In this document: piece by piece, positions 22,454 to 26,780 of the stretch
Position numbering within the stretch: position 1 is the first letter of the stretch
Layout of the letters: the number at the start of each line of letters is the position of its first letter
DNA from: Streptomyces sp. 2131.1
Lineage (GTDB): Bacteria; Actinomycetota; Actinomycetes; Streptomycetales; Streptomycetaceae
Assembly: GCF_900105515.1 (NCBI RefSeq)
Contig: NZ_FNSY01000001.1
Coordinates: forward strand, 5,320,001 to 5,384,000
Direction: 5' to 3'
DNA: 64,000 nucleotides
Position numbers and translations under genes: made by a program
Notes under the pieces: generated by a model
The model's database searches: none
Seen by the model: the letters and a program-made list of their open reading frames with translations, nothing else
Told to the model about the DNA's origin: nothing

Positions 22454-22492
22454 CGCCGTACGCGCGCCTTCCGGTACCTGGCGGCCCCCGTC

Positions 22493-22505
22493 TAGCGTGC
22501 CCGGC
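22493..22505 (+). promoter_or_regulatory. Leaderless-type -10 box of the LuxR gene
   Basis: TAGCGT (22493-22498) matches the TANNNT consensus and ends 7 bases before the GTG start, which has no Shine-Dalgarno sequence. This is the spacing of a leaderless transcript. No clear -35 is visible. Confidence 0.45.
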
Positions 22506-25304
22506 GTGACTCCCCCCACGACCGTGCACCGTCCGCTCCGGCTGTACGGCCGCAGCGGCGAACTCGCCGTACTCGAAGCCTTGTTGGCGCGCCTCTGCCA
22601 CGGCGACGGCGGCGCGCTGGTCCTGACGGCCCCGCCGGGCTCGGGCCGTACGGCCCTTCTCGCCCACGCCGTCGCCGCGTACCGCGACCGGGGCGCGGGC
22701 CCGGCCCTCCATGTCGTCGGCGCACCCGACGAACGGTGGGTGCCGTACAGCGGGTTGCACGCGTTGCTGTGCGCGGCGGGCCCCGCGCCCGGCGACCCGG
22801 ACCGCGTGCTGCGCGACGGCCTCCCGCCCGCCGCGTTCCTCGCCCTCCTCCGGCGGTTCGGCGGCGGGCGGCCCCTCCTGGTGTGCGTGGACGACGCCCA
22901 CCTCTGGGACCCCGACTCCCGTGCCGCCCTCGCCTTCGCCGCCCGCCGGCTCGGGCCGGGCAGCCGGGTCGCCGTGCTGATCGCCGCCGGGGAGGAGGCC
23001 GGCTTCGCCGGGCTGCCCGCCCTCCGCCCCGGCTCCCTGGACGACGAAGCGGCCTCCGCGCTCATGGACCGGCTCACCGGGGCGGACCGGGCCGATCCGG
23101 CGGTGCGGGGCGCCCTGCTCCGGGAGGCGGCCGGGAACCCCGGGCTGCTCACCGCGCTCACCGCCCGCCTCACCCCGGCCCAGCTCGCCGGGCGGGTTCC
23201 GCTGCCGCACCCGTTGCCCGGCGGGGACGACGTCCTGGCCGCCCACGCCGACCGCGTCGGCCACCTCCCCGCCGCCACCCGGACCCTGCTCCTGATCGCG
23301 GCCGCCGCGCACGCGCACGAGCCGGAGGGGGCGGGAGCCGACCTCACCCTCGTCCGTCGCGCCGCCGCGGCGGCCGGTGTCCCGCCCGCCACGTCCGACC
23401 TGGCCCCGCACCCGTCGGGCGGTACGGCCGGTGCGCTCCGACGGGCCGGCGACCGCGTCCACTTCGGCGAGCCCCTGCTGCGCCGCGCCCTCCTGCACCG
23501 GGCGCCACCGGACCGCCGCCGCGCGGTGCACGACCTGCTCGCCGGCCTGCTCGCGCCCGGGTCGGCCGCCCTGATCCAGCGGGCCTGCGCGTCCGCCGGC
23601 CCCGACGCCGCGCTCGCCGCCGCGCTGGAGGCGGCCGCGGCCCCGCCGCTCCCGCACGCCGACCGCGCGACCGCCCTCAGCCACGCCGCCGCGCTGACCC
23701 CGGACGAGGCGGATGGGGCCTGCCGTTCGGATCAGGGCGGACCCCGCGAGCCCGGCCTGATCCGAACGGCAGGCCCCGGGGCCGCCCGGTACGCGGCGGC
23801 GGCCGAGCAGTACCGCCTCGCGGGGGAGCCGGGGCGGGCCCGCACCGCACTGGCACGGGCCGGCGCCGCCCCCGGCCCCGCCCACCACGTACGCGGCCTG
23901 CTCACCCTCGCCGACGGACCCGCCCCCGACGCCCACGAGGCCCTGCTCACCGCCGCCGCCCTGCTCGCCCCGCACAACCCCGGGCGCGCCCGGAACGCCC
24001 TGCTGGGGGCCGCCGAGGCCGCCTGGTCGGCGGGGGACGCCCTCGGGTACCTCGACGCGCTGACCCGTATCCCCGCGGAGGCCGCCGACCGGGACCTGAC
24101 CCACTACCGGGACGGGATGTGCGCCGTGCTGCGCGGGCGGATCGGTGCCGGGCACCTGCTGCTGCGCCGCTGCCTCGTCTCCGGCGCCCACGACCCCGGG
24201 GCGCTGTTACGGGCCGGAGCGGCCGGTCTTGTCCTCGGCGACCTCGACGCCGCCTGCCGGGCCGGGACCCGCGCGCTCGCCGCCGTACACGCGAGCGGTG
24301 CCGACGCCCTGCTGCCGCGGGCCCTGGAACACCTCGCCTACGCGGAGCTGCGCGCCGGGCGGCACGCCCGGGCCCGAGCCCACGCGCTGGACGGCCTGCG
24401 CGCGGCACGCCGTACCGGGGGGCTCAACGCCGCGGCCCACCTGCACGCCGTACTCGCCCTCGCCGCCTCCGTGGAGAGCGGGACGCGGGAGTGCGCGGCG
24501 CACGCCGGTGCCGCGCTCGCGGGTGCCGCGCCGCACGGGCTCGTCCAGGCGGAGACCCTGGCCACCTGGGCGCTGGCGCGCGCCGACCTGGCGGCCGGGC
24601 GCCCGGCGGAGGCGGCGGTGCGGCTCGATCCGCTGGTCCGGCCCGGGCCCCGGCGCGGACACTTCGCCACCCGGATGCTCGCAGTGCCCTGTTACGTCGA
24701 GGCGTCCGTGCTGGCCGGGCGGACGGTCCGGGGCAGGGGAGCGGAGCCGGTGGCCGAGGCGGTGGCGGAGTTCGCCGTGTGGGCGACGCGCACCACGGAC
24801 CCCCAGGTCCCCGCCCAACTCGCCCGCTGTCGGGCCCTGCTGGCGCCGGTGGGCGAGGCCGCCGGGCGGTACGGGGAGGCGCTCGCCCATCACGACCGGG
24901 CGGGCGGTGACTTCGAACAGGCCCGTACCCGGCTGCTGTTCGGATCCTGGTTGCGCAGGCGCCGCCGTACCCGCGAGGCCCGCGAGCCGTTGCGGGACGC
25001 CCTGGTCGGGTTCGAGCGGTGCGGGGCCGCGGCCTGGGCCGCCAGGGCGAGCGGCGAACTGCGGGCCGCCGGTGAGGCGGTGGAGGCCCCGGGCCCGTCG
25101 GGAACGGCCGCCCAGCTGGCCGCGCTCACCCCGCAACAGGCGCGGATCGCCCGCTGCGTGGCCGAGGGGGCCACCAACCGGGAGGTCGCGCGGCGGCTCT
25201 CGGTGAGCACGCGGACCGTCGACCACCACCTGCGCAACGTGTTCGCCGCCCTGGGCGTGCGCTCGCGGACGGAGCTGGCCGGGCTGCTGGGCGGGGGCAC
25301 GTAG
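22506..25304 (+). CDS. Large ATP-binding LuxR-family (LAL) regulator with a TTA codon
   Basis: 932 residues. An N-terminal ATPase domain has a Walker A-like APPGSGRTA (about 38-46, with Arg where Lys is usual) and Walker B-like LLVCVDDAHLW. A long Ala-rich helical region follows, then a C-terminal LuxR helix-turn-helix (LTPQQARIARCVAEGA, then NREVARRLSVSTRTVDHHLR). LAL proteins usually activate antibiotic or sugar-use genes. Codon 568 (24207-24209) is TTA, read by the bldA tRNA in Streptomyces, so expression is probably growth-phase dependent. A 22-bp-arm palindrome at 23715-23777 is carried in frame. There is no adjacent biosynthetic cluster, so the target is unknown. The substituted Walker A casts doubt on ATP hydrolysis. 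Confidence 0.88.
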   Translation: MTPPTTVHRPLRLYGRSGELAVLEALLARLCHGDGGALVLTAPPGSGRTALLAHAVAAYRDRGAGPALHVVGAPDERWVPYSGLHALLCAAGPAPGDPDRVLRDGLPPAAFLALLRRFGGGRPLLVCVDDAHLWDPDSRAALAFAARRLGPGSRVAVLIAAGEEAGFAGLPALRPGSLDDEAASALMDRLTGADRADPAVRGALLREAAGNPGLLTALTARLTPAQLAGRVPLPHPLPGGDDVLAAHADRVGHLPAATRTLLLIAAAAHAHEPEGAGADLTLVRRAAAAAGVPPATSDLAPHPSGGTAGALRRAGDRVHFGEPLLRRALLHRAPPDRRRAVHDLLAGLLAPGSAALIQRACASAGPDAALAAALEAAAAPPLPHADRATALSHAAALTPDEADGACRSDQGGPREPGLIRTAGPGAARYAAAAEQYRLAGEPGRARTALARAGAAPGPAHHVRGLLTLADGPAPDAHEALLTAAALLAPHNPGRARNALLGAAEAAWSAGDALGYLDALTRIPAEAADRDLTHYRDGMCAVLRGRIGAGHLLLRRCLVSGAHDPGALLRAGAAGLVLGDLDAACRAGTRALAAVHASGADALLPRALEHLAYAELRAGRHARARAHALDGLRAARRTGGLNAAAHLHAVLALAASVESGTRECAAHAGAALAGAAPHGLVQAETLATWALARADLAAGRPAEAAVRLDPLVRPGPRRGHFATRMLAVPCYVEASVLAGRTVRGRGAEPVAEAVAEFAVWATRTTDPQVPAQLARCRALLAPVGEAAGRYGEALAHHDRAGGDFEQARTRLLFGSWLRRRRRTREAREPLRDALVGFERCGAAAWAARASGELRAAGEAVEAPGPSGTAAQLAALTPQQARIARCVAEGATNREVARRLSVSTRTVDHHLRNVFAALGVRSRTELAGLLGGGT
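23715..23777. repeat. Perfect 22-bp-arm palindrome inside the LuxR gene
   Basis: Arms 23715-23736 and 23756-23777 are exact inverted complements around a 19-base loop. The core reads GCCTGCCGTTCGGATCAGG. It resembles intergenic palindromic elements I recall from Streptomyces, but here it is translated in frame, adding about 20 residues (CRSDQGGPREPGLIRTAGPG) to the helical middle region. Confidence 0.85.
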
Positions 25305-25490: not shown

Positions 25491-26780
25491 ATGCCACAGG
25501 TCGTACATTCACGGGTCAGGGCGCTGCACACGCCGCCGCCCGTCGTCCCGGTCCCGCGCCGCTTCCGTTCGCTGGCCGATCGCGAGGCCGTCGCCGTCCT
25601 GCACCGGGCCGCCCGGGTGCTGGTGGCGGCGCTCCCGGAGCTGACGGACCGGATGGTGGAGGCGCTGCGGGAGCGGGAACCCGGCTACCGTGCCGCGATC
25701 GAGGCCGACCCGGCGGAGATATGGCAGGAGGTGCACCACTCGCTGCGGCACAACGTGGGTTCGCTCATCCAGCCCCGTGAGTTCCGGGAGGCCGCACACC
25801 GCACATCGCGGTGGATCGGCGAGGTCCGGGCCGAGCAGGGAGTGCCGCTGGACGCGGTCCTGCACGCGTTCCGGATGGGCGGGGCGATGGTCTGGCAGGA
25901 CCTGGTGGACGAGACCGCCCGCCGCCACCCGGAGGACATCCGGCTGCTGGTCCACGTCGCCGCGGACGTCTGGAACTTCGTGGACGAGCACTGCGCGATC
26001 GTCGCCGACGCCTATCGCAGGGCGGAACGCCGCCTCGCCTGGCGCCGGGAGAACCGGCACCGCCTGATGACGGCCGCGCTGCTCGACGGCACCGCCCAGA
26101 TCGCCGACCTCCCGGACACGGCGGCGGCCCTCGGCCTGCTGGAGGACGGCCGGTACGCGGTGCTCGCCCTGCGCGACGCCCGCCGCTCGCCGCACGGCAC
26201 GGCGCACCCGCCCCTGGAGCTGCCCGCCGCCACGGACGCCGTGTGGCACGCGGGGCCCGAGGCGGAGTACGCCGTCCTGTCGCTGGGCCGGGCCGGCGGC
26301 ACGGACCCGGCGGACGCCCTCGCCGCGCTGGCCGCCGGCCTGCGCCTGCCGCCCGGGGCCCGGGCCGGCATCGGCTCGGCGGTGGACGGCCTTGCGGCGG
26401 TCGGGGACGCCCGGCGCCTCGCGGACACGGCGCTGCGGGCCTGCCCGGCGCACGGCGGGACCGTTCTGCTCGACGAGCACCTGCCCGCCGCCCTGGTGGT
26501 CTCGTCCCCGGCGCTCGGCGCGGCCCTCGCCGACCGGGTGCTCGGGCCCCTGGACCGGCTGGACGCGGCGGACCGGGACGTGCTCATCGAGACGCTCACC
26601 GCATGGTTCGACGCCGACGGCTCGGCGCCCCGGGCGGGCGCCCGCCTCTACTGCCACCGCAACACGGTCCTGAACCGCCTCCGCCGCTTCGAGCAGCTCA
26701 CCGGCCGCTGCCTGACCCGCCCTTCGGACGCGACCGAGGTCTCCCTGGCCCTGACGGCCCGCCGCCTGCTGGCGGACTGA
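25491..26780 (+). CDS. PucR/CdaR-type transcriptional regulator
   Basis: 429 residues. The N-terminal 170 residues form a RsbRD-like helical sensor module (HHSLRHNVGSLIQPREFREAA and VLHAFRMGGAMVWQDLVDE are typical). A middle GGDEF-like region precedes a C-terminal PucR helix-turn-helix with the signature YCHRNTVLNRLRRFEQLTG near residues 390-408. The ATG at 25491 has GGAGG 7 bases upstream. Such regulators often control neighbouring catabolic or transport genes, here perhaps the symporter gene 210 bases downstream. The effector is unknown. Confidence 0.87.
   Translation: MPQVVHSRVRALHTPPPVVPVPRRFRSLADREAVAVLHRAARVLVAALPELTDRMVEALREREPGYRAAIEADPAEIWQEVHHSLRHNVGSLIQPREFREAAHRTSRWIGEVRAEQGVPLDAVLHAFRMGGAMVWQDLVDETARRHPEDIRLLVHVAADVWNFVDEHCAIVADAYRRAERRLAWRRENRHRLMTAALLDGTAQIADLPDTAAALGLLEDGRYAVLALRDARRSPHGTAHPPLELPAATDAVWHAGPEAEYAVLSLGRAGGTDPADALAALAAGLRLPPGARAGIGSAVDGLAAVGDARRLADTALRACPAHGGTVLLDEHLPAALVVSSPALGAALADRVLGPLDRLDAADRDVLIETLTAWFDADGSAPRAGARLYCHRNTVLNRLRRFEQLTGRCLTRPSDATEVSLALTARRLLAD

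Follow-up and report, generated by a model that had tools for sequence, protein, structure and literature searches.

A LipR ortholog with a TTA codon, and a candidate distant lipase target, in a Streptomyces lineage lacking the adjoining lipA gene

Known LipR systems and other regulators with TTA codons

The closest described system is that of Streptomyces exfoliatus, in which bldA-dependent expression of lipA is mediated by lipR, as the title of the report states (Servin-Gonzalez et al. 1997, J Bacteriol 179:7816, cited in PMC12134079). A review citing this work describes Streptomyces lipA and the downstream lipR, coding for a LuxR-family activator, as an operon switched on when LipR binds upstream of the −35 region. 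For the S. coelicolor lipAR operon the reference is Valdez et al. 1999 (cited in PMC12134079). This is the same regulator-lipase pair as in the LipR family considered here, and beside S. coelicolor LipR we note that relatives in what we call clade D mostly have no TTA codon (present in 3 of 49). We take SCO0712 to be the S. coelicolor lipR. It is not among the genes of Table 2 in PMC4255298. A second LuxR-like regulator of S. coelicolor with a TTA codon, SCO4263, passes the bldA effect to the nearby operon SCO4251-4253 in the account of PMC2000904, and its product is given as 1251 aa in PMC3282765; it shares family and TTA codon with the regulator described below, but it is a different gene, larger and with targets close by. 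AdpA, for which PMC4255298 reports a TTA codon in 14 of 14 Streptomyces genomes, between its two domains, likewise carries the codon as a bldA gate on a regulator, although AdpA is of the AraC type.

The regulator studied here lies in a 64,000-nucleotide stretch of the Streptomyces sp. 2131.1 genome, which we refer to as the window, and it resembles LipR of S. exfoliatus M11 in family, size, base composition and the possession of one TTA codon. The M11 protein is said to have 934 aa, with a GC content of 80.2% and a single TTA in its gene, against 932 aa, 80.5% and one TTA in the window, and exchanging that TTA for CTC in lipR reportedly removed bldA dependence. The two differ in that lipA adjoins lipR in M11 and is missing in the window.

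Identification of the regulator

The features on which the comparison turns are as follows.

22506..25304, + strand: lipR ortholog, a LAL-type LuxR-family regulator of 932 aa (assigned from Pfam domains and lipA upstream in relatives)
24207-24209, + strand: TTA codon for Leu568, in frame with GTG22506, codon 568 of 932
22469..22505, + strand: promoter-like TTCCGG-N18-TAGCGT, reaching up to the start codon
21640..22395, + strand: hisF, last gene of the his cluster, 110 bp before lipR, where relatives hold lipA

The automatic gene call put the start of lipR at 22584, and we prefer GTG22506, where the conservation among relatives begins and which the promoter-like TTCCGG..TAGCGT directly precedes. 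The protein has an AAA_16 domain (aa 12-157, E 2.9e-14) and a GerE domain (aa 873-925, E 4.4e-13), giving the LAL arrangement of about 900 aa with an N-terminal ATPase domain and a C-terminal LuxR-type HTH. An intact Walker A motif reads GxxxxGK[ST]; in the region of aa 41-50 the window protein has PPGSGRT, and because Arg replaces Lys here the LAL-type label describes architecture only. The same substitution (GxGRT) is found in all 63 ungapped rows of clades A, B and D of the alignment (21 rows are gapped there), so that ATP use by the LipR family may be altered; the window protein does have a Walker B-like VDDAH. Table 1 of PMC3282765 gives no ATP-binding motif for SCO0712.

Relatives were collected from genome contigs and further genomes, and clustering of neighbouring genes over 65 loci reveals a single hydrolase family upstream of the regulator in 58; it is the adjacent gene in 55 of them and lies one gene further away in 3. 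Pfam shows the hydrolase from locus L082 to be PETase-like, and its PDB match is 1jfr (named LIPASE; E 1.7e-152), the S. exfoliatus lipase. On the tree of relatives, with lipA called at 72% identity or more to the L082 gene over the best segment, lipA lies upstream in 73 of the 79 rows with data (seven have none), within 1.7 kb in 72 of these 73 (L083 is the exception), as expected of orthologs of the regulator in the lipA-lipR pair. We name the window gene lipR because lipA adjoins its relatives, that hydrolase matches 1jfr, the review describes a lipA-lipR pair, and the length (932 aa) and GC content (80.5%) agree; it is tied to S. exfoliatus LipR by lipA adjacency, size and GC. Judged from these features, it is a LipR ortholog, of the class that activates the extracellular lipase gene lipA, and not a regulator of unknown class. 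It is an ortholog without the pair, since no lipA adjoins it in the window and none was found in its genome (G000).

The TTA codon and its rarity

The original prediction placed an in-frame TTA at codon 568 of a 932-residue regulator and found no other in the window by eye. Both observations hold: the codon is in the frame of GTG22506, and although TTA occurs 44 times in the window (13 on the + strand, 31 on the −), a programmatic count finds it in frame only here among 52 called genes covering 88% of the window. The gene caller was home-made and trained on the GC-rich window, so that AT-richer genes may be undercounted, and because at least 19 TTA trinucleotides sit in stretches without a called gene, another TTA gene is possible if a gene was missed. 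Across 1.084 Mb of this genome, a span that contains the window, TTA occurs in 9 of 863 called genes (9 in 298,557 codons), from which 0.028 are expected for lipR and 0.57 for the called codons of the window, with a probability of 0.43 for one or more in the window. A lone TTA in a window of this size is therefore ordinary, and its uniqueness there is no evidence of bldA control.

Genes dependent on bldA are recognized by an in-frame TTA in a genome with a tRNA-Leu(UAA). Both are present, the tRNA-Leu with anticodon TAA lying at C3:4315619-4315701 (the search gave 69 tRNA matches in the genome, of which nine long ones were passed to ARAGORN). Conservation of the codon at its position, which is not generally required and would be expected of a fixed gate, is not seen: TTA occupies site 568 in 2 of 22 clade A rows (the window and L085) and in no other of the 86 rows. 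The codon lies 61% into the gene, which counts against a bldA gate at this site, as TTA codons in Streptomyces lean towards gene starts (PMC4255298).

TTA codons among related lipR genes

Among the nearer regulators (540 bits or more; the first set, with the window's included) 15 of 22 have a coding TTA, compared with 3 of 55 distant ones. A draw made later was less favourable: of nine additional nearer relatives, one (L165) carries the codon. First-batch loci were scored only if the best segment reached at least 250 bits and the frame stayed within the contig. TTA occurs 19 times among the 20,493 codons of the nearer regulators and twice among the 68,795 of flanking genes, a rise of about 20-fold where CTA rises 2.8-fold (L053, L131, L114 and L057 were omitted from this comparison). 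The codon is clustered on the 86-row tree, requiring 13 changes against a mean of 19.8 after shuffling, with none of 500 shuffles as low. It is present in 9 of 22 rows of clade A (the window's), 9 of 13 of clade B and 3 of 49 of clade D, and thus in 18 of 35 rows of A and B together; L176 (with TTA) and L168 (without) are in the tree outside these clades. In terms of alignment columns, A and B have 13 with TTA and 14 with CTA, and clade D has 3 and 15. The ratio in A and B differs from that of codons genome-wide (9:46; Fisher p 0.0035), in flanking genes (4:25; p 0.0083) and in all pooled (16:86; p 0.0012), and less so from clade D (p 0.055); the test sets distinct lipR columns against codon counts elsewhere, the TTA of the window is itself part of the genome count, and the enrichment p values are optimistic because both the 540-bit group and clades A and B were chosen after seeing the data.

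Within the four-row clade to which the window belongs, each row has exactly one TTA, at site 568 in the window and L085, at 829 in L081 and at 379 in L094. L081 has TTG at site 568, and L091, a split relative, has CTG at 568, TTG at 829 and no TTA. The pattern fits retention of a bldA gate whose position moves, with relaxed codon choice explaining part of it. Left off the tree were L053 (same score and TTA as L134), L171 (partial, with TTA), L164 and L167 (duplicates of L114 and L098), L170 and L174 (further pieces of genes already included) and seven partial or split genes without TTA in the counted piece (L057, L111, L091, L055, L136, L116 and L169); in L057 and L111 a TTA occurs in the other piece, at the place of the promoter arm described below.

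Loss of lipA

The six tree rows with data in which lipA was not found upstream are the window, L081, L085, L094, L128 and L129. A whole-genome search of G000 also failed to find lipA, with the same query positive in five of five control genomes. In the window a gap of only 110 bp lies between hisF and lipR, and in L091 hisF likewise lies directly before the regulator, with no room for lipA. By this comparison of gene orders lipA is deleted in the window's lineage, and since the neighbouring lipase gene is gone, the window lipR probably switches on a lipase gene elsewhere.

The regulator itself remains under purifying selection in this lineage, with a dN/dS of 0.31-0.33 in five pairs (0.07-0.48 in 14 other pairs), and its DNA-binding helix and HTH region are nearly identical to those of lipA-bearing relatives. 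We considered whether lipR is a dead gene in the window and rejected this on the dN/dS of 0.31-0.33, the frameshifted L091 notwithstanding. In L091 (5604-9050) lipR is split into two frames about one third of the way in, and a short repeated unit, VVTGSCGLDSVGGS, begins the second piece. Two tandem lipA copies precede lipR in G069 (C7:1149103-1151260) and G081 (C1:6358064-6360164).

The lipR promoter

Immediately ahead of the start codon many relatives have the sequence TTAC-N6-GTAA, the end of which forms a −10-like TAACGT or TAACCT, with TTCCG at −35 distance, a layout that reads as leaderless with an operator-like palindrome. The window promoter also appears leaderless, and its palindrome is degraded, TAGCGT being left and the other arm gone. 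A stricter form of the palindrome, TTACGCNNNAGTAAC, is present once in seven and twice in one of 12 genomes, and was not found in G000 and the three others; because all eight genomes with it hold one site at the lipR promoter, it looks private to lipR, and we infer that it is perhaps autoregulatory.

Loss of the palindrome and presence of TTA tend to coincide. In clade A, 8 of 9 rows that have lost the palindrome carry TTA compared with 1 of 13 that keep it, and over all 79 scored rows the figures are 10 of 17 and 10 of 62 (L058, L060, L172, L176, L168, L155 and L129 have no clear promoter and were left out). A gain of TTA after palindrome loss stays a suggestion, since the median p is 0.25 when the seven pairs that are phylogenetically independent are compared, and six clade D rows have lost the palindrome and have no TTA. 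A scenario in which selection keeps the bldA gate but not its position (a TTA disappearing at one leucine and arising again at another), the TTA gate in the window's larger clade having followed palindrome loss as if translational had replaced transcriptional control, and the gated LipR of the window's lineage having moved from the deleted lipA to an unlinked lipase, is one that we put forward speculatively and think rather unlikely in its entirety.

A candidate distant target

Upstream of lipA, 61 sequences were collected and about 40 aligned, and a block, GAGACCGGTGAtnnnGCCGAT, is conserved there, as read from 14 of the aligned sequences. With up to two mismatches it has 23 matches in G000, two of them with a single mismatch; the reversed control has none in G000 and one in G006. 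One single-mismatch block, at C3:6813704, lies 73 bp before an unlinked, secreted-type class-2 lipase gene (C3:6813798) 1.47 Mb from the window, whose product has a Pfam Lipase_2 domain (E 6e-15) and PDB matches to lipases and esterases. The other, going by its locus centre alone, seems to fall inside a called gene. G012 aside, this search also puts sites ahead of lipA in G069, G081 and G006 but fails to pick up the lipA promoter of G019.

Orthologs of the class-2 lipase (76% identity or more) are present in 8 of 71 genomes, G000 included, all of them within the 25 of 71 that have LipR at E ≤1e-80, a co-occurrence that may reflect kinship. In all ten lipase loci the best block match is 58-78 bp before the gene, with 1-6 mismatches (at least 4 in six of the ten). 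The ten include two distant lipases (50-53%) in G067 and G076, genomes without LipR at E ≤1e-80. Because of these two genomes, and of the six loci with four or more mismatches, the block may be the site of another factor or partly a matter of chance; the 23 matches in G000 and the missed G019 promoter count against it as well. In loci L270 and L273 its sequence is CGGTGA-N2-TCACCG, the type of inverted repeat to which GerE-type dimers bind. We infer from the position and sequence of the block that the unlinked lipase is the most likely remaining target of LipR, as a candidate.

Proposed mechanism and alternative explanations

We think it probable that the window gene, as lipR, activates genes for extracellular lipases under a bldA gate. 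The UUA at codon 568 would limit translation of LipR for as long as the bldA tRNA is scarce, in line with the report on the S. exfoliatus ortholog, and with lipA gone LipR would act in trans, most likely on the secreted lipase gene at C3:6813798 of G000, the promoter of which has a lipA-type block. The original prediction, a likely bldA target that may act globally or on distant genes, is partly supported: bldA control gains from the tRNA-Leu(TAA) in the genome, LipR orthology, the S. exfoliatus precedent and the TTA enrichment in related lipR genes, and of the two modes of action the distant one fits the candidate site at the unlinked lipase. The bldA idea was right in kind and is not new, since lipR-mediated bldA dependence was published for S. 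exfoliatus in 1997. What is new here is that lipA is lost, that TTA changes position and that a distant target can be put forward as a candidate. A bare rare-codon observation has become a named regulator with a published bldA precedent, in a lineage that offers a natural experiment, the cognate lipase being gone and the regulator kept; and because presence and position of the codon can be separated, lipR would be a good case for measuring the evolution of a bldA gate, if TTA turnover is selective.

The most serious competitor, which we nonetheless hold to be unlikely, is that the TTA reflects drift: codon choice in lipR would be relaxed, rare codons gathering after the loss of the target lipA and without regulatory meaning. 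Compared with flanking genes, lipR has most A- or T-ending codons at 1.2-4 times the frequency, site 568 is not conserved as TTA, and the window's lineage has lost both lipA and the promoter palindrome. TTA is found in 4 of 6 rows without lipA and in 15 of 73 with it, in only 1 of 9 later relatives, and not in L091, a frameshift-split member of the lineage. However, relaxation of this kind does not readily account for a roughly 20-fold rise of TTA beside one of only 2.8-fold for CTA in the nearer relatives, for 13 TTA against 14 CTA columns where codons genome-wide stand at 9:46 (Fisher p 0.0035), for a lipR dN/dS of about 0.3, or for lipA being kept in those 15 TTA-bearing rows.

It is also conceivable, and in our view improbable, that without lipA LipR now controls its neighbours, a PucR regulator and an SSF symporter, rather than a lipase. 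A PucR relative is near lipR in 49 of 65 loci, but the lipA-promoter block does not precede PucR in the window, where all listed sites have at least 3 mismatches; TTAC-N6-GTAA is absent between 4 kb upstream and 6 kb downstream of the window lipR start; and the symporter is seen in 9 loci of clades A and B, ABC transporter-like genes taking its place in 31 clade D loci. Hardly credible is the proposal that a TTA eight codons before the start of the relatives is the conserved bldA codon, the start codon being misplaced. This TTA (at −24 to −22) does recur in many relatives, yet it is one arm of the DNA palindrome TTACnnnnnnGTAA overlapping the −10-like TAACGT, and it does not keep a constant frame with the start, being offset by one base between relatives. 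In L083, L052, L089 and L114 it is followed by TAA in the frame of the start codon, a stop that rules it out as coding.

Downstream genes and an internal repeat

Two further features of the window concern the surroundings and the interior of lipR.

25617..26780, + strand: PucR-type regulator (HTH_30), a relative of which directly follows lipR at 48 of 65 loci
23715..23777, + strand: perfect 22-bp inverted repeat with a 19-bp loop, in frame inside the lipR linker

In the window's clade the downstream genes include the SSF symporter and an ArsR-type gene, and in clade D (e.g. L101) the ABC transporter-like genes lie downstream of lipR-PucR in the 31 loci, as read by eye from the sequences. The inverted repeat is absent from L085, L094, L082 and L114. 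A search of the window and 1.02 Mb of the genome with an 18-base arm, allowing up to 3 mismatches, turned up single arms with 3 mismatches but no second pair. In L081 this variable linker of lipR holds another insertion.
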